DNA of 20,553 nt, from IMG/VR virus record IMGVR_UViG_3300022198_001368, positions 1 through 20,553 of that record. One strand, 5' to 3'. How positions within the stretch are numbered: position 1 is the first letter of the stretch; every line of letters begins with the position of its first letter. This DNA is from a virus. The notes beneath the pieces are model-generated. The model worked only from the letters and a program-made list of their open reading frames with translations. It searched no databases and was not told the origin of the DNA. A program made the translations under genes and the position numbers. Shown piece after piece: positions 3,005 to 16,745 of the stretch.

Positions 3005-3082
3005 CTACCCGTAGCTCAACTGGACAGTAGCAAGTGCCTTCTAAGCACTAGGTTAGAGGTTCGAGTCCTCTCGGGTAGGCCA
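3005..3082 (+). tRNA. tRNA-Arg (anticodon UCU)
   Basis: Cloverleaf: acceptor 3005-3011 pairs with 3072-3078 (seven Watson-Crick pairs), discriminator G3079, CCA encoded at 3080-3082. The D stem is 3014-3017 with 3028-3031 (one C-U mismatch), and the D loop carries GG. The anticodon stem 3033-3037/3045-3049 is perfect, with loop CTTCTAA and anticodon TCT at 3040-3042. The T stem AGAGG/CCTCT is perfect, with loop TTCGAGT. It reads AGA (and possibly AGG) codons, which are frequent in this phage and scarce in GC-rich hosts. It abuts the next tRNA with no spacer. Confidence 0.95.
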
Positions 3083-3157
3083 GCCCAGTTAGTTAAATGG
3101 AGATAACAGTTGATTTGTAATCATCAATTGCGGGTTCGATTCCTGCACTGGGCACCA
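3083..3157 (+). tRNA. tRNA-Thr (anticodon UGU)
   Basis: Cloverleaf: acceptor GCCCAGT (3083-3089) pairs fully with 3147-3153, discriminator A3154, CCA encoded at 3155-3157. The D stem is GTTA/TAAC. The anticodon loop is TTTGTAA with anticodon TGT at 3116-3118; the anticodon stem has one U-U mismatch. The T stem is GCGGG/CCTGC with one G-U pair and loop TTCGATT. The variable loop is four bases. It reads ACA codons. The gene begins at the base after the CCA of tRNA-Arg, so the pair must be separated by processing exactly at the CCA end. Its 3' half overlaps the best reading frame start of the RlpA-like gene. Confidence 0.93.
3099..3112 (+). promoter_or_regulatory. Shine-Dalgarno and TTG start lying inside tRNA-Thr
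   Basis: GGAG (3099-3102) falls in the D arm of tRNA-Thr, seven bases before TTG (3110-3112) in its anticodon stem. The 13 bases ATGGAGATAACAG here (3097-3109) are identical to those before the GTG start of the exonuclease (1763-1775), which argues that the spacing can work. Whether ribosomes use it is not shown by sequence. Confidence 0.4.
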
Positions 3158-4596: not shown

Positions 4597-4729
4597 GAAC
4601 AGAAACCCGTATGCAAGGGAGTTGGCTGAAGACAAGTACAGGCAACGTATAAAAGAATCAGATAAAGTATATACCAGAAAGAAATTGAGGATCAAAGATG
4701 TATACGAATATGATGACTCTGCCAACTGA
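4559..4729 (+). CDS. small basic protein of unknown function
   Basis: The product is 56 residues from the ATG at 4559, very rich in Lys and Arg in its first two thirds (GWRKKTFQKKPKNRNPYAR, then KYRQRIKES, then RKKLRIKD) with an acidic end (YEYDDSAN). The NPYAREL...KYRQR pattern resembles short conserved proteins of other phages of unknown role; this is from memory. The frame is open upstream to 4466, but that part is read from the coding strand of the 60-residue gene in another frame and looks like a shadow. The ribosome binding site is weak, so coupling to the upstream gene is likely. It overlaps the ribonucleotide reductase start by 32 bases. Confidence 0.6.
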   Translation: MGWRKKTFQKKPKNRNPYARELAEDKYRQRIKESDKVYTRKKLRIKDVYEYDDSAN

Positions 4730-6617
4730 CTATCAGGCTTTCATCCATAAGTCTAGGTATTCCAGATGGATTGAAGAAGAGAACCGTAGGGAGTCTTGGG
4801 AAGAAACTGTTGACAGGTTCATGGACAATGTTGTTGCCCCTAAGCTACATGACGTAGAGACTTTCAAGGCTATCAAAAATGCTATCCTCAACCTTGAGAT
4901 CATGCCCAGTATGCGTGCCATGATGACTGCTGGCAAGGCTCTGGACAGGGATAACACCTGTGCCTACAACTGTTCTTACCTTCCTGTGGATGACATGAAG
5001 TCCTTTGATGAGGCCATGTTTATCCTGATGTGCGGTACTGGTGTAGGCTTCAGTGTCGAACGTCAGTACGTTTCCAAGCTCCCTGAGATCCCTGAGAAGA
5101 TGTTTGATTCACAGACTGTAATCTCTGTGTCTGATAGCAAGGAAGGTTGGGCCAAGGCTCTTCGCCAGCTTATCTCTCTCCTCTACTCTGGTGAGATTCC
5201 CAAGTGGGATATGTCCAAGATCCGCCCTGCTGGTTCCAGACTGAAGGTCTTTGGTGGCCGTGCTTCTGGACCTGAGCCTTTGGACCAGCTCTTCAGGTTT
5301 GTTGTGTCTGTCTTCCGTGGAGCTTCTGGGCGTAAGCTCAACTCACTTGAATGCCATGACATCATGTGCAAGATCGGTGAGGTTGTTGTTGTTGGGGGTG
5401 TTCGTCGCTCTGCAATGATCTCCTTGTCTAACCTTAGCGATGACCGGATGCGTCATGCCAAGACTGGTCAGTTCTGGGAGACTAATCCCCAGAGGTCCTT
5501 GGCCAACAACTCTGTTGCCTATACCGAAAAGCCTGATGCCAGTACATTCCTTCATGAGTGGGCCAGTCTGGTTGACTCTGGTACTGGTGAACGTGGGATG
5601 TTCAGCCGGGTGGCAGCACAGAAACATACGGCAAAGAACGGCAGAAGAGATCCTGAGCATGAGTTCGGGACCAATCCTTGCTCAGAGATTATCCTTAGGC
5701 CGTACCAGTTCTGTAATCTTACCGAGGTAGTTGTCAGGGCTGAAGACAGCCTTGTTGATATTGAACGTAAGGTCAAGCTTGCCACTATTCTTGGCACTGT
5801 TCAGGCAACGTATACTCACTTCCCGTACCTCAGGAAGATCTGGACCAAGAACACTGAAGAGGAACGCCTTCTGGGTGTCTCCTTGACAGGTATCATGGAC
5901 CATGATGTTCTTAATGGACAGAACCCTTTGGGTAATCTTCCGGCTGCACTAACTGCCCTAAAGGAAGCAGCTATCAAGACGAACAAGGAATGGGCTGGAC
6001 TGTTGGGTATCCCTGAGTCTGCTGCTATCACCTGTGTCAAGCCCAGTGGTACAGTGTCTCAGCTTGTTGACTCTGCTTCTGGTATCCATCCCCGGCATAA
6101 CATCTACTACATCCGTAGAGTAAGGGGAGACAACAAGGACCCTATCACCCAGTTCATGAAGGACATGGGTATTCCTAATGAGCCTGACATCATGAAGCCT
6201 GACCATACGACTGTGTTCTCCTTCCCTGTCAAGGCTCCTGATGGTGCTGTTACTCGTCATGATCTTAGCGCAGAGGATCATCTCAATCTCTGGAAGATCT
6301 ATGCCGAGTTCTGGTGTGAGCATAAGCCTTCTATCACTGTCTCTGTCAAGGCAGACGAATGGGTTGATGTAGGTGCATGGCTTTACTGGAACTTCAACAT
6401 TGCTTCTGGTCTTAGCTTCCTCCCCCATTCAGATCATATCTACAAGCAAGCCCCATATGAGGACTGTTCCAAGGAAGAGTACGATAGTCTTCTTGCCAAG
6501 ATGCCTGAGACTATTGACTGGTCCCGGTTGTCTGACTATGAGAAAGAAGACACGACAAAAGCAAGCCAGACTGTTGCCTGTACTGCTGGCTCCTGTGAGA
6601 TTGTGGATCTTACGTAA
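4698..6617 (+). CDS. nrdJ: adenosylcobalamin-dependent ribonucleoside-triphosphate reductase (class II, monomeric type)
   Basis: The product is 639 residues. It reduces ribonucleotides to deoxyribonucleotides using a thiyl radical generated from coenzyme B12, supplying dNTPs for phage replication. Seen directly: N-C92-S-Y for one redox cysteine, N326-P-C328-S-E330 for the radical cysteine and its glutamate, C339 eleven residues later for the second redox cysteine (the C408/C419 spacing of the Lactobacillus enzyme), and a C-terminal C628-x4-C633 pair for re-reduction. The catalytic set is complete. It is about 100 residues shorter than the 739-residue Lactobacillus leichmannii enzyme. GAGG (4687-4690) seven bases before the ATG at 4698 supports this start over the ATGs at 4710 and 4713. 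The stop overlaps the next ATG by one base. Confidence 0.95.
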   Translation: MYTNMMTLPTDYQAFIHKSRYSRWIEEENRRESWEETVDRFMDNVVAPKLHDVETFKAIKNAILNLEIMPSMRAMMTAGKALDRDNTCAYNCSYLPVDDMKSFDEAMFILMCGTGVGFSVERQYVSKLPEIPEKMFDSQTVISVSDSKEGWAKALRQLISLLYSGEIPKWDMSKIRPAGSRLKVFGGRASGPEPLDQLFRFVVSVFRGASGRKLNSLECHDIMCKIGEVVVVGGVRRSAMISLSNLSDDRMRHAKTGQFWETNPQRSLANNSVAYTEKPDASTFLHEWASLVDSGTGERGMFSRVAAQKHTAKNGRRDPEHEFGTNPCSEIILRPYQFCNLTEVVVRAEDSLVDIERKVKLATILGTVQATYTHFPYLRKIWTKNTEEERLLGVSLTGIMDHDVLNGQNPLGNLPAALTALKEAAIKTNKEWAGLLGIPESAAITCVKPSGTVSQLVDSASGIHPRHNIYYIRRVRGDNKDPITQFMKDMGIPNEPDIMKPDHTTVFSFPVKAPDGAVTRHDLSAEDHLNLWKIYAEFWCEHKPSITVSVKADEWVDVGAWLYWNFNIASGLSFLPHSDHIYKQAPYEDCSKEEYDSLLAKMPETIDWSRLSDYEKEDTTKASQTVACTAGSCEIVDLT

Positions 6618-6856
6618 TGACAGAAGAGCCAAAGGTATTCAAGCTTGTCACAAAAGAAAAACCCCCGGAAGACCCGGGGGTTACAGCAAATGATTTGCTA
6701 AAAGAAGGGATTGATAACTACGATAACATCATCCTGATTGGCTGGCACGGAGATTCATTCAAGATCTCTTGGTCTGAAGACTTTACTCCAGAGGAAGTTT
6801 ATGTTCTTCTTGAAGTAGCCAAGGACAGGTTGATGAACAGGATGTACGTATTCTGA
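6617..6856 (+). CDS. small protein of unknown function, last gene of the rightward block
   Basis: The product is 79 residues. After a Lys/Glu/Pro-rich start, residues 25-79 read as a compact alpha/beta fold (DNYDNIILIGWHGDSFKISWS, then a helix EEVYVLLEVAKDRLMNRM). This general pattern occurs in small proteins of unknown role in other marine phages; no function can be given. The ATG shares its A with the reductase stop (TAATG), so translation is probably coupled. Codons 12-23 also encode, on the other strand, a strong hairpin with a U-tract, so this coding stretch must serve two purposes. It ends six bases from the converging gene. Confidence 0.75.
   Translation: MTEEPKVFKLVTKEKPPEDPGVTANDLLKEGIDNYDNIILIGWHGDSFKISWSEDFTPEEVYVLLEVAKDRLMNRMYVF
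6652..6682 (-). terminator. intrinsic terminator of the leftward late block, inside the opposing gene
   Basis: On the minus strand a 9-bp perfect stem (AACCCCCGG with CCGGGGGTT; 6682-6674 and 6668-6660) with loop GTCTT is followed by TTTCTTTT (including stem bases, TTTTTCTTTT). This is the classic form of a Rho-independent terminator for leftward transcription. It lies about 180 bases past the last leftward stop codon and within the coding region of the 79-residue rightward gene. Read rightward, the same hairpin has no U-tract after it. Confidence 0.8.
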
Positions 6857-6862
6857 CGTAGA

Positions 6863-7294
6863 TTACTTCTTACCCCTCAAGAGGCTCAAGAGATTGGGCC
6901 TTTTAATTTTTCTACCGCCTCTCTTCTGCATCTCAGTAGGGGCAGCACCAACCCAGTTACCTTTGAATGCAGGGGCCTTGGGAGGTCTTGCCGTAGACTT
7001 GCGCTTCTCTACCTTCTTCTTAGAGGCATTAGGATTAACAGGCTTTAGCTTAGGTTTGGGAATCTTTGCACCGCGAACAGGGTTTCCCTTACCCTCACGA
7101 TTAACGCGCTGCGGTTGGTCTCCCTTACCCTCACGATTAACGCGCTGCTGTTGATTGCCTTTTTCTTTTCTATTGACAATTTGCAGTTGGTTAACTTTTT
7201 CTGTTCTGTTTGGATACTGTTCAAGATCAACCTTGGTATTAGGATCACGATAGCGAATGCTACGATTAGACCCGGGGTATATAAAGTTTGCCAT
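6863..7294 (-). CDS. basic low-complexity protein with three 12-residue repeats
   Basis: The product is 143 residues, very rich in Lys, Arg, Asn, Pro and Gln. Residues 35-70 are three tandem 12-residue repeats (NQLQIVNRKEKG, NQQQRVNREGKG, DQPQRVNREGKG), followed by a KPKLKP/KKKVEKRK basic stretch and a KRGGRKIKRP tail. It looks disordered and nucleic-acid-binding, but no family is recognised. The start has a purine-rich AAGGAAAG upstream and lies one base after the stop of the preceding 31-codon gene. It is the last gene of the late block, so it is probably made late and may be a minor virion or DNA-packaging accessory protein; that is a guess. The rightward terminator lies within its last codons. 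Confidence 0.75.
   Translation of the reverse strand: MANFIYPGSNRSIRYRDPNTKVDLEQYPNRTEKVNQLQIVNRKEKGNQQQRVNREGKGDQPQRVNREGKGNPVRGAKIPKPKLKPVNPNASKKKVEKRKSTARPPKAPAFKGNWVGAAPTEMQKRGGRKIKRPNLLSLLRGKK
6882..6911 (+). terminator. intrinsic terminator of the rightward block, inside the opposing gene
   Basis: The stem AGGCTCAA (6882-6889) pairs with TTGGGCCT (6894-6901), eight pairs including one G-U. It is closed by a GAGA (GNRA) tetraloop and followed by TTTTAATTTTT (6901-6911). It starts 26 bases after the stop of the last rightward gene. It lies within the 3' coding end of the leftward 143-residue gene. On the minus strand the hairpin lacks a following U-tract, so it should act only rightward. 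Confidence 0.85.
7085..7192 (-). repeat. 36-base tandem repeat, three copies
   Basis: Two copies (7085-7120 and 7121-7156) share their first 28 bases exactly. The third (7157-7192) is degenerate but aligns in register. Each encodes one 12-residue unit of the basic protein. The first two copies look recent in origin and may vary in number between relatives. Confidence 0.9.
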
Positions 7295-7295
7295 G

Positions 7296-7391
7296 TTACT
7301 TTCCTTTCTTCTTCATAGCCTTTTTCATGGGCTTCTTCATTTCATTCATCTTCTTCATAGGCTTCTTATAGATCTGACCCTTACCCGGCAT
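7296..7391 (-). CDS. 31-residue Lys/Met-rich micro-protein
   Basis: The ORF begins MPGKGQIYKK, continues with repeated M-K-K and P-M-K-K units and ends KKKGK. A full AAGGAG lies seven bases before the ATG, and the stop is one base before the next start, so it fits the spacing of the operon. Nearly half of the residues are lysine. No family is recognised. It would bind polyanions such as DNA or RNA, by composition only. Confidence 0.65.
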   Translation of the reverse strand: MPGKGQIYKKPMKKMNEMKKPMKKAMKKKGK

Positions 7392-7432
7392 AACTGAACT
7401 CCTTCTTAAATCACCAGTGTTAGTTGTTTTCA

Positions 7433-7657
7433 TCATCTGTACTTAGCTACTTTCTTGGCGATTGCCTTTGGCTGGCGTACATGTTGAGTTTTCCCCTTTC
7501 TTTTAGCTGCTGTAGTAGCAGCATACTCTGAAGGTGTAAGAGCTTTTATTGCTTTTTCTGGTAGATATCTTTCTCCAGTTTTTGAAGAAGGTTTACCAGA
7601 CTTTGTTCTCCACTTTTGTTTTGTCCAATTAACAAGATCTTTCTGGGGCTTCTTCAC
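7433..7657 (-). CDS. small basic conserved viral protein (possibly DUF5872)
   Basis: The product is 74 residues with the pattern W-x-K-Q-K-W-R-T-K-S-G-K-P-S, then TGERYLPEKAI, then EYAATTAAKRKGK and a basic end. I associate this with a small family of unknown function found in phages and other DNA viruses, which I believe is DUF5872, from memory. It starts with GTG at 7657, which overlaps the stop of the upstream gene as GTGA; GGAGGT lies about eight bases upstream. It is very basic throughout. The function is not known. Confidence 0.8.
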   Translation of the reverse strand: MKKPQKDLVNWTKQKWRTKSGKPSSKTGERYLPEKAIKALTPSEYAATTAAKRKGKTQHVRQPKAIAKKVAKYR

Positions 7658-7839
7658 TTGTAACCACCTCCAGCTTTCTTGTATTCCTTGGCAAGAAGTT
7701 GAGCCTTACGGGCTGACCATTGTCCAGCCTTTGTACCCATTATAGCAGATCCTTTGATCTTGTTAAAGAGTCTTTTACGAAGTTCTGGTTTGGTATAGTT
7801 ACCAGCTTCGTTTACTTTGCTCTTAACTTTTTTTACCAT
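7654..7839 (-). CDS. small basic protein conserved in marine phages
   Basis: The product is 61 residues. VNEAGNYTKPELRKRLFNKIK and GQWSARKAQLLAKEYKKAGGGY are segments I recognise as typical of a short protein seen in many cyanophages and other marine phages, with no known role. It is strongly basic. The start overlaps the upstream stop by seven bases, with AAGG four bases before the ATG. The end overlaps the GTG of the next gene. An A7 run follows the start codon region, but no alternative frame of interest follows. Confidence 0.8.
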   Translation of the reverse strand: MVKKVKSKVNEAGNYTKPELRKRLFNKIKGSAIMGTKAGQWSARKAQLLAKEYKKAGGGYK

Positions 7840-8105
7840 TTGACCTTATCCGCCCAGTAAGCCGCAGACATCTTACCCTTGGAGATGTTCTTGGCATGTC
7901 TGGCCTTAAAGGATTCCCTACGCTTACGATAGGACTCAGACTCACCAGCTTTCTTAGGAGAACCAGACACTCCCTGCTGACCAAACCTGATAAGCTTTAC
8001 CTTTGAACCTTCCTTTGCCAGTACAGCATGAGACTTGCTGGCATTGGGTGTACGCTTGGGTTTGTTATACCCTGCAAACTTCTCACCTCTGTATTCAATT
8101 GCCAT
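7833..8105 (-). CDS. basic protein conserved in marine phages; intact copy of a duplicated 5' end
   Basis: The product is 90 residues. The IRFGQQGVSGSPKKAGESE, YRKRRESFKARHAKNI and MSAAYWADKVKW segments are typical of a conserved phage protein of unknown function. I place the start at the ATG at 8105, because GGAG lies six bases upstream and the truncated paralogue at 8358-8444 begins at the same residue. The frame is open four codons further upstream. The first 26 codons are duplicated there with one amino acid change (Glu4 to Lys). Highly basic, like its neighbours. Confidence 0.8.
   Translation of the reverse strand: MAIEYRGEKFAGYNKPKRTPNASKSHAVLAKEGSKVKLIRFGQQGVSGSPKKAGESESYRKRRESFKARHAKNISKGKMSAAYWADKVKW
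8028..8105 (-). repeat. 78-base repeat, copy A (within the 90-residue gene)
   Basis: Matches 8367-8444 in 74 of 78 bases. The four differences are all transitions and give three silent changes and one Glu-to-Lys change. Confidence 0.95.
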
Positions 8106-8160
8106 CATTAACTCCAATAATTATTACCTGATCCGGGTAAACCAACAAGAAAATAAACAA

Positions 8161-8346
8161 TCATTTCTTACCCTTTGGTTTCTTGCCTTTAGGTTTCCAC
8201 TTACCCAGATTATTATCTATCTCTTCTGTCCCTGAAAGTTTACCCTTCTTCTTCATGGCATAGAAGACAGACTCAGCTTTATCTTCGTCTTTGTAGTACT
8301 TCTTCATTGCACGAAGTACCTTTTTACCTTTACTTGTCAGCGCCAT
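8161..8346 (-). CDS. small lysine-rich conserved phage protein
   Basis: The product is 61 residues. The pattern MALTSKGKKVLRAMKKYY...KAESVFYAMKKKGKLSG resembles a short protein family common in phage late regions, sometimes found as a domain of larger proteins. Its function is unknown. The C-terminus is a K/P/G repeat (PKGKKPKGKK). AGGGG lies eight bases before the ATG. The gene lies between the intact and truncated copies of the duplicated sequence, so it is enclosed by direct repeats in the same orientation. Confidence 0.75.
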   Translation of the reverse strand: MALTSKGKKVLRAMKKYYKDEDKAESVFYAMKKKGKLSGTEEIDNNLGKWKPKGKKPKGKK

Positions 8347-8357
8347 TATTGATACCC

Positions 8358-8444
8358 CTATACTTTATGAGACTTGCTGGCATTGGGTGTACGTTTGGGT
8401 TTGTTATACCCTGCAAACTTTTCACCTCTATATTTAATTGCCAT
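8358..8444 (-). CDS. 28-residue truncated paralogue of the 90-residue basic protein
   Basis: The ORF reads MAIKYRGEKFAGYNKPKRTP, then six shared residues, then K-V-stop. It equals the first 26 residues of the 90-residue protein except for Glu4 to Lys. AAGGAG lies six bases before the ATG and overlaps the stop of the upstream murein hydrolase gene, so it should be well translated. It may be a duplication remnant or a retained micro-protein; three of the four base differences from the parent are silent, which mildly favours retained coding function. Confidence 0.6.
   Translation of the reverse strand: MAIKYRGEKFAGYNKPKRTPNASKSHKV
8367..8444 (-). repeat. 78-base repeat, copy B (the 28-codon ORF)
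   Basis: Direct repeat of 8028-8105. The pair is separated by about 260 bases that hold the 61-residue gene. It could support recombination that deletes that gene. Confidence 0.95.
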
Positions 8445-8454
8445 GATTTACTCC

Positions 8455-9513
8455 TTAATAAGTCCAAGTAGAAGCCATTCCCGGCTTGAGTTTATCTTTG
8501 GTCCATACATCAAAGTGTATACCAGCCTCTCCCATGTATGTACCAACTGATCCAAAATCGTTTTGAATCCAGTAATCTCTGAGCTTATCCAAAGTTTTTC
8601 TGTCCTTGACTTGTTTACCCTCAGGATTATAAATCTTTACATCAGCAGCAAGACCAAGACCATCCTTGTCTACATCATGTCTTTCTGTGCCAGTCTTTTT
8701 TTCACCTTCCTGACCACCAGAGTAAACTTCTACAGTGTACCCTGTACCCAAGACAGTCGAAACGGCCATATCAAGCTTGGCCTCAAGCTCAAATGTAACA
8801 GGTTTGTTTCTGATAACCTCTTGGTTTGTGTACTTGATTGTGGTAAAACCGACAGGCTTGAGGACTGTGGTAGACCTAGACCGAATATTATTACTGACTG
8901 TTTTTTCAAAGTTTTTGTCAATTACAATACCTGTCCATGTTTTCTGAAGAGCCTCTCTCAGAAACTGGGTATTACCAGCAGCAAGGTCTGCCTCAAGATC
9001 CCTGCCTTTGGTATTCTGTTTATATCTTTCCTTGGCCAGATAAAACGCAGCCTTATCCTGATTCTGAGGACTAAAGTCTCCAAGATCAGGATAGTTTTTC
9101 TTGAGGTACTGCCATGTTTCATTTGTAATCTGGTACTTACCAGCGGCTGTGCTAGGTCCAGCCTTTGTCACAACTCCTACAATGTTAGGATGCTCCAGAC
9201 CTTCAAACTTCTGACCACCTACAATGATATTGTAATCCCCACCTGTACCTTCTGCACTGGCAATGGCATCAAGAAAGCCTTGGGCTTGTGGAGACAACCC
9301 AGATCCATCCACAGCCGGGGTAATCACAGGCTCTCCAATCAAATCCTTTGTCTCAGGATCTACCTTTGGTTTTTCTTTCTTGGTAAAGGTATCAAGCAAA
9401 GCCTTGACAGAAGTACCAAGATTGTAGATATCCTGAGGATTTACTGTAGCAGCAGGGGCCTGTACAGTAGCATCCACATTTACATCAGATACTTCAGGTT
9501 TTAGCAAAGCCAT
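8455..9513 (-). CDS. two-domain murein hydrolase: GH104-type lysozyme plus M15-like peptidase
   Basis: The product is 352 residues. Residues about 76-195 match the lambda R / GH104 lysozyme pattern: FLDAIASAE88GT with the catalytic Glu, YNIIVGGQKF, EHPN, AAGKYQI, TW and DFSPQNQDKAA. Residues about 243-345 look like a D,D-peptidase of the M15 type: YSGG, then H279, then G-L-A-A-D291, then G-I-H333-F-D335, giving a His/Asp/His zinc site. The protein would thus cut both glycan and peptide bonds. There is no signal peptide. It follows the internal virion genes, so it may be a virion-borne hydrolase used at DNA entry, the endolysin, or both. The first 10 residues (MALLKPEVSD) resemble those of the preceding 620-residue virion protein. 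GAGGG precedes the ATG. The GH104 call is firm; the peptidase call is likely. Confidence 0.85.
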   Translation of the reverse strand: MALLKPEVSDVNVDATVQAPAATVNPQDIYNLGTSVKALLDTFTKKEKPKVDPETKDLIGEPVITPAVDGSGLSPQAQGFLDAIASAEGTGGDYNIIVGGQKFEGLEHPNIVGVVTKAGPSTAAGKYQITNETWQYLKKNYPDLGDFSPQNQDKAAFYLAKERYKQNTKGRDLEADLAAGNTQFLREALQKTWTGIVIDKNFEKTVSNNIRSRSTTVLKPVGFTTIKYTNQEVIRNKPVTFELEAKLDMAVSTVLGTGYTVEVYSGGQEGEKKTGTERHDVDKDGLGLAADVKIYNPEGKQVKDRKTLDKLRDYWIQNDFGSVGTYMGEAGIHFDVWTKDKLKPGMASTWTY

Positions 9514-16262: not shown

Positions 16263-16745
16263 TTAAAGATCCTTCCAATAAATTACTTCTTTTTCAGAGT
16301 ATCCAAGTCTCTTGTACAATTTGCCTAAGTTGTTTGGACTAAGGTTTGTGAATGTGGATACAGAAAGTATGTCTGCTTTCTTGTATTTACCCCATGCTTC
16401 AAATGCCTTCAGCATCTCAAGTCCGTACTTCCTGTACTCCTCTTCTACATAGATAGACATACAGTATGCCATCATTGAATAGTGAAAGTAATGCGGGGTA
16501 AGGTAGCCAAAGATGTATCCTCTTACCTTTCCACAAATGACCAAGACAATACCTGTTGCCTTGTCATTCCTGAGGGCTTCCCTGAACAGGGCTTCTATCC
16601 GGTCTTCCTCAAACTCTTTGTCAGGTACAGCAGCCTTGACAGGAACTCTGGATAGTCTTACGATATCTTCGTAGTCTTCTTCTTTGATGTACCTTATACT
16701 GACGTCAGTATTTCTTCCTACGTCAGTATCTTGGATTTGTCCCAC
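16263..16745 (-). CDS. GNAT-fold acetyltransferase-like protein (T7 gp13 position)
   Basis: The product is 160 residues. The GNAT fold is suggested by an N-terminal IRYIKEEDYEDIVRLS, a central MSIYVEEEYRKYGLEMLKAFEAW covering motif A, and a C-terminal LGKLYKRLGYSEKEVIYWK. The acetyl-CoA loop is degenerate: R105-x-x-G108-x-E110 instead of R/Q-x-x-G-x-G/A, so activity is doubtful. T7 gp13, encoded between gp12 and gp14, belongs to a family of the same clan, and this gene has exactly that position. It therefore probably aids virion assembly. The start is GTG at 16745, overlapping the gp12 gene by 23 bases, with GGGA about eight bases upstream; no ATG is available near the N-terminus. Confidence 0.75.
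   Translation of the reverse strand: MGQIQDTDVGRNTDVSIRYIKEEDYEDIVRLSRVPVKAAVPDKEFEEDRIEALFREALRNDKATGIVLVICGKVRGYIFGYLTPHYFHYSMMAYCMSIYVEEEYRKYGLEMLKAFEAWGKYKKADILSVSTFTNLSPNNLGKLYKRLGYSEKEVIYWKDL
16696..16711. repeat. 16-base perfect palindrome with a nearby second half-site
   Basis: ATACTGACGTCAGTAT is a perfect inverted repeat. Its right half, ACGTCAGTAT (16702-16711), recurs at 16720-16729, 18 bases further on. It lies in the first codons of the GNAT-like gene and touches the end of the gp12-like gene. It encodes two Thr-Asp-Val units, so coding repetition may explain part of it. It could also be an operator or a nuclease target. Confidence 0.7.

Follow-up and report, generated by a model that had tools for sequence, protein, structure and literature searches.

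The small-gene block and its genomic setting

What is encoded by the seven very small, strongly basic ORFs that follow one another where the late arm of this virus ends, and do their products act together? The window, i.e. the whole stretch of DNA analyzed here, comprises 20,553 nt of one IMG/VR virus record, with the replication and nucleotide genes on the plus strand and the late genes on the minus strand. A long ribonucleotide reductase (RNR) ORF (4698–6617, plus strand) lies toward the end of the replication arm and is followed by a 79-aa ORF (6617–6856, plus strand). On the late strand, a protein of 1455 aa matches the 'internal virion protein D' of Lentibacter phage ICBM2 and has homologs also in SIO1, CRP-4 and CRP-5. 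In cobaviruses, two arms converge on terminators, one with the replication genes and RNR, the other with the lysis genes and then the internal virion proteins (PMC6775973). The window exhibits the same converging RNR and lysis/internal-virion-protein arms, hence the cobavirus plan, and belongs to a marine, cobavirus-like podovirus. At the nucleotide level, the comparison with annotated phages returned a match of 64 bp only, in SIO1-type phages. The window also carries tRNA-Arg(tct) and tRNA-Thr(tgt) genes side by side (3005–3157), and tRNAs are reported as absent from ICBM1 and ICBM2 (PMC6775973); a GNAT acetyltransferase gene (16263–16745) is placed within the late arm, a feature shared with other cobaviruses.

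In the late arm, the small-ORF block is the 3'-most part and is preceded by a 352-aa gene with a lysozyme-like domain (8455..9513, minus strand; phrog_90 endolysin, 9e-19). The arm is closed by a predicted intrinsic terminator (6660..6682, minus strand; 10-bp stem and T tract, fold z −4.5) within the convergent plus-strand gene, and a terminator-like site of the plus-strand arm (6879–6904) is found within the final gene of the minus-strand arm. Since each of these sites lies inside the last gene of the opposing arm, the transcripts of the two arms probably overlap.

Six candidate genes and a relic

All seven ORFs described in the initial annotation are present on the minus strand (143, 31, 74, 61, 90, 61 and 28 aa in coordinate order), and their coordinates, overlaps or short gaps and charge were reproduced throughout. 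The 143-aa and 31-aa ORFs are separated by 1 nt and the 31-aa and 74-aa (C) ORFs by 41 nt; C overlaps the first 61-aa ORF (B) by 4 nt, B overlaps the 90-aa ORF (D) by 7 nt, and gaps of 55 nt and 11 nt separate D from the second 61-aa ORF (A) and A from the 28-aa ORF. In the same order, the net charges of the products are +28, +12, +18, +14, +16, +13 and +7, with pI values of 10.1–11.4; for comparison, the four upstream late genes that were checked have net charges of −4, −14, −7 and +8. Of the six intact genes, the least basic one is equaled or exceeded in basicity per residue by 31% of 120 small phage genes, a reference set that is enriched because it was taken from carriers of these families. 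A clear Shine-Dalgarno sequence precedes the 28-, 31-, 74-, 90- and 143-aa ORFs and a weak one both 61-aa ORFs.

Scans of the window proteins against Pfam and NCBIfam gave no matches. The comparison with PHROG profiles confidently identified phrog_14910 for C (7433..7657, minus strand, 74 aa, GTG start; 4e-31), phrog_17747 for B (7654..7839, minus strand, 61 aa; 2e-30) and phrog_7595 for D (7833..8105, minus strand, 90 aa; 3e-38), in each case over nearly all residues. The fourth gene, A (8161..8346, minus strand, 61 aa), encodes a protein of the KGKKI..AM..YG..KGE.VFYA..NKG type, for which an HMM family could be built. Comparison of B, C and D with their nearest distinct relatives yielded pS values of 0.78–0.85 against pN values of 0.10–0.19, and the 143-aa gene has a dN/dS of 0.44; these ratios argue for purifying selection on the protein, which for B, C and D is strong. 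These are thus real genes. They had been supposed to be overlooked because of their length, and the SIO1 record (AF189021, 24065–24277) indeed contains D without annotating it; in other records the genes have been called, as hypothetical proteins, and B, C and D fall into PHROG families of no assigned function. By profile comparison, these three are also relatives of DUF5754 and DUF5872.

The remaining three ORFs differ in standing. The 28-aa ORF (8358..8444, minus strand) copies the first 26–28 codons of the 90-aa gene together with its ribosome binding site (8367–8454 vs 8028–8115, 93% identity over 88 nt), and past codon 28 the copy decays into stops. With the start of D repeated and the similarity then broken off, this ORF is best read as a truncated relic of a duplication of gene D, which reduces the seven proteins proposed initially to six candidate genes. 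The weakest of these is the Lys-rich 31-aa ORF (7296..7391, minus strand), which has a good Shine-Dalgarno sequence (AAGGAG) and a homolog only within the same virus (L091/L183). In its slot, the close relative L184 holds a basic gene of 63 aa that belongs to a different small family (AIKKPGALR type) and L185 a 46-aa gene of the KPQKQA type, which indicates that the content of the slot is exchanged between relatives. The final gene of the late arm encodes the 143-aa protein (6863..7294, minus strand), in which a 36-nt tandem repeat (7081–7152) gives rise to 12-aa repeats (QRVNREGKG..). Its relatives are found in L184 (73% identity), from which the above dN/dS was obtained, and in L185, where the gene is located between TerL and portal. 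The tblastn searches with the 143-aa protein and with A against annotated phages gave no match.

Families A–D form a module

The initial annotation proposed a functional module and named co-occurrence of the families as the check. Viral contigs were picked by similarity to the window, and the proportions that follow therefore describe close relatives, not phages at large. C lies within 3 kb of B on the same strand in 79 of 80 B-anchored contigs, and B within the same distance of C in 76 of 80 C-anchored contigs, most often with the close spacing or stop/start overlap seen in the window. The other associations are looser: B or C is near D in 24–25 of 80 D-anchored contigs (D with C in 25), A is accompanied by both B and C in 13 of 69 A-anchored contigs, and 60 of 80 C-anchored loci carry B-C alone, without D. 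When B-C contexts were grouped by shared neighbors, all collapsed into a single group of 188, which gives no usable count of independent contexts. Among annotated phages, 16 records hold B, 17 hold C and 15 hold both, and these 15 cover HMO-2011-type phages, pelagiphages of 34–36 kb and Methylophilales podoviruses; the corresponding hypergeometric P-value (8e-56) was computed as if the phages were unrelated and is not a usable probability. The cassette is common, as B, C and D each occur in at least ~580–600 IMG/VR contigs.

The families are also joined to one another in single ORFs. Family HMMs were made per domain, as iteration with full ORFs merged A, B and C owing to fusions. A, a family of 79 domains, is the N-terminal partner of B in 11 ORFs (including HMO-2011 gp63), B-C fusions were found 25 times and C-B fusions 26 times, and one C-D fusion (L233) occurs immediately downstream of B; other small basic families are fused to B as well (H-B in three cases, F-B in one). 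That each of the four families is somewhere fused to another of the four is the strongest evidence of joint action. With fusions linking all four and B and C together in 15 of 16–17 annotated records and about 95–99% of contigs, the proposal of a functional module stands, and the objection that a lack of co-occurrence would have raised falls away; by these genomic criteria, the module of A–D is genuine.

B and C correspond to the two halves of DUF5872

Searched singly, window B and window C showed no match to DUF5872 (PF19197). Jointly, they cover most of its profile, B as the N-terminal and C as the C-terminal half, and the cut-off of 27.5 bits is exceeded by L090, a B-C fusion from a phage (28.6 bits), as well as by a protein of Methylobacterium (30 bits) to which window C is 53% identical. 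By profile coverage, B plus C is thus a split form of DUF5872, which in bacteria is whole, whereas in the window it is divided between two overlapping genes and does not include the Rho_N/SAP-like tail. This C-terminal segment was detected on chromosomal B-C proteins from Pseudomonas, Alsobacter and an alphaproteobacterial MAG (L383:5821-6339, L382:5821-6354 and L391:5839-6372), with E-values of 1e-4 to 0.02, below the cut-off. A chromosomal gene with the phage order reversed, C-B, occurs in 26 Pelagibacteraceae contigs (L343–L380; e.g. L380:5998-6414), next to SDR (22 of 24 loci), TspO, DUF3833, CMAS (cyclopropane synthase) and DUF1365 genes, a neighborhood that presumably resembles a photo-oxidative stress regulon. 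From this setting, the Pelagibacteraceae C-B gene has the appearance of a stress gene of the host with kinship to the phage cassette, and the chromosomal homologs in general show that B-C works also without a capsid. The matching of an AlphaFold model of B-C (pLDDT 88) with Foldseek and VIA-align revealed no significant similarity to a solved fold.

D is related to Tlr6F/DUF5754

No DUF5754 (PF19058) match was found for window D in Pfam at E≤1, and none of the phage D proteins tested scored above the Pfam cut-off for this family. A relationship became apparent through the intermediate protein L332, which is similar both to DUF5754 (E 3e-5; 24.3 bits, under the cut-off of 27.4 bits) and to the D family (HMM 7e-27; hhalign: 45% identity over 82 columns, 99%). 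Since L332 matches both, D is by way of this intermediate a homolog of Tlr6F/DUF5754, from which it differs in that the cysteines of the RHKC...YWAC/YWSC forms (L332, L344) are absent from window D. DUF5754 corresponds to Tlr6F (PMC12220804), which has been reported as conserved in almost every polinton-like virus and as occurring in several virophages, in many giant viruses and in some phages, and described without a known function (PMC4642659, Yutin et al. 2015); like D, it is a small viral protein to which no function has been assigned. The phycodnavirus CpV-BQ1 is listed with both DUF5754 and DUF5872 proteins (PMC12085832). Several of the families had been described initially as found across marine phages; their range is not confined to these and also includes bacterial chromosomes (DUF5872-type proteins) and, according to the literature, eukaryotic viruses (Tlr6F/DUF5754). 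Two further loci were noticed in this connection. On a contig of Pelagibacter AG-892-J03 (L344:5129-6240), a D-like gene with the RHKC...YWSC cysteines is followed by B and C, with phage-type genes before and host-type genes after, as at the end of a prophage. On a contig of Candidatus Dependentiae (L348:5291-6234), D, B and C occur together without obvious phage context.

Structure-based searches with D were less informative. The alignment of D showed no significant match among PDB sequences (ribosomal protein L24 at E 0.2–0.4), and for the AlphaFold model (pLDDT 84) Foldseek and VIA-align identified no significant solved fold, the best being Sac7d, a DNA-binding protein (E 0.14). The lack of a solved match for the D and B-C models is no proof that the predicted structures represent new folds. 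Among viral structure models, D returned its own family, an XkdF-like protein and a ChaB phage protein, and a weak profile match linked it to the phrog_220 minor head protein.

Links to head and packaging genes

The D domain is found in a protein connected with capsid assembly. Gp125 of phage ICP1 is an XkdF-type serine protease (Peptidase_S78_2, Pfam 3.5e-10), expected to be the scaffold-degrading protease (PMC9040626), and its residues 184–261 constitute a D domain. D is thus located at the C-terminus of the protease in ICP1, whereas in the window it is free-standing, with no protease domain. In KBS-S-2A and MED4-117, the D gene has a minor-head gene on one side and a major-head gene on the other, and in 15 contigs a phrog_206 scaffold gene directly follows D (median distance ~40 nt). 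A adjoins the large terminase gene (TerL) in HTVC033P and a head-tail connector gene in MW202711, and B-C adjoins TerL in MEP401. Overall, a head or packaging gene is present within 5 kb in 46 of 80 D contigs and 39 of 80 C contigs, raw counts that have to be read with the frequent proximity of late genes to head genes in mind. In the cobaviruses, the window included, the genes are located by the lysis gene at the end of the arm and not among the head genes, and in CRP-13, too, they are closer to lysis genes. A D homolog occupies the same place, between the endolysin gene and the converging early arm, in the cobaviruses (Zobellviridae, Cobavirinae) ICBM2 (gp31) and SIO1; the loci examined in these two phages are without A, B and C near D, whereas the window has all four.

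The literature yielded no virion proteomics placing any of the products in a virion; ICP1 virions have not been fully analyzed according to PMC9040626, and the cobavirus paper (PMC6775973) holds no virion proteomics of a carrier.

Possible function of the cassette

Of the roles suggested in the initial annotation, packaging is the better supported, owing to the head-gene context and the capsid-protease fusion; for takeover of host ribosomes or nucleoid, the only indication was the insignificant L24 match (E 0.2). Our tentative preference, held at somewhat below even confidence, is for a cassette whose members, A, B, C and D together with lineage-specific ones such as the 31- and 143-aa products, are expressed late as single-domain polycationic proteins and can replace one another. 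They would act jointly on DNA in head assembly, most likely by entering the prohead or by binding the genome while it is packaged. Once bound, they may neutralize or organize the packaged DNA and perhaps travel with it into the next cell, as the T4 internal proteins do. The latter are basic, about 8–20 kDa in size, present in ~300 copies each, variable between relatives and able to bind DNA at low salt (PMC9026906). The window set is like IPI, IPII and IPIII of T4 in being small, basic and variable between relatives; its intact genes are small, lie on the late strand and encode products with net charges of +12 to +28. As the window revealed no maturation protease, a T4-style cleavage is not indicated. 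That the products bind DNA, are present in the prohead or virion and may be ejected is what we infer from the fusions, the co-occurrence, the D domain of gp125, the head-gene neighbors, the Rho_N/SAP-like tail and the likeness to T4. The position next to lysis genes in this virus, the lack of a significant match to a solved structure and the bacterial homologs count against this explanation.

The bacterial homologs suggest the chief rival, according to which the products are intracellular DNA-protection or nucleoid proteins: late in infection, they would coat the DNA of the phage or of its host and stay out of virions altogether, as viral counterparts of the small basic stress proteins of bacteria. 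The B-C and C-B genes of bacterial chromosomes, some with the Rho_N/SAP-like tail (Pseudomonas, Alsobacter, alphaproteobacterium), and the 26 Pelagibacteraceae contigs with C-B amid SDR, TspO, DUF3833, CMAS and DUF1365 genes agree with it; as it leaves the fusion of D to a capsid protease and the location of D before scaffold and capsid genes unexplained, we regard it as possible, but rather doubtful. These same two features of D, at the C-terminus of gp125 and immediately upstream of scaffold genes, would be expected of factors that assist prohead assembly as helpers of the core or scaffold and have no role on DNA, among which D docks on the prohead core and the others are its partners. Neither the high charge that A, B and C uniformly carry nor the bacterial chromosomal homologs would then be accounted for, and B-C mostly occurs without D, which makes such factors an unlikely solution. 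Still more unlikely is that the genes are morons, loosely held small cassettes recombined at the end of the arm, with unrelated or marginal functions: the relic of gene D and the differently filled 31-aa slot of L184 and L185 are what one would predict for morons, but the near-obligate linkage of B and C, the pairwise fusions and the strong purifying selection are not. Binding to RNA or the ribosome with an effect on translation is highly improbable, for although the products resemble ribosomal proteins in being small and basic, the L24 match of D is not significant and no ribosomal fold appears among the top structure matches.

Implications

The chain of fusions that ties the families to one another and to a capsid protease appears to be new, no paper describing it having been found in a limited search of open papers. 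A bolder extension, which we consider conceivable though rather unlikely, is that combinatorial small polycationic domains (A–D and families E–H) constitute a common viral DNA-packing toolkit across tailed phages. It is an equally speculative part of this idea that D and B-C are shared with eukaryotic DNA viruses, with Tlr6F/DUF5754 and DUF5872 as the widest members. If true, tailed phages would supply the capsid-linked function that Tlr6F has been missing. With D tied to a capsid protease, to scaffold neighborhoods and to three small basic families, a testable hypothesis becomes available for two orphan families, DUF5754 and DUF5872, which span viruses of bacteria and eukaryotes, and it may be addressed in cultured phages.
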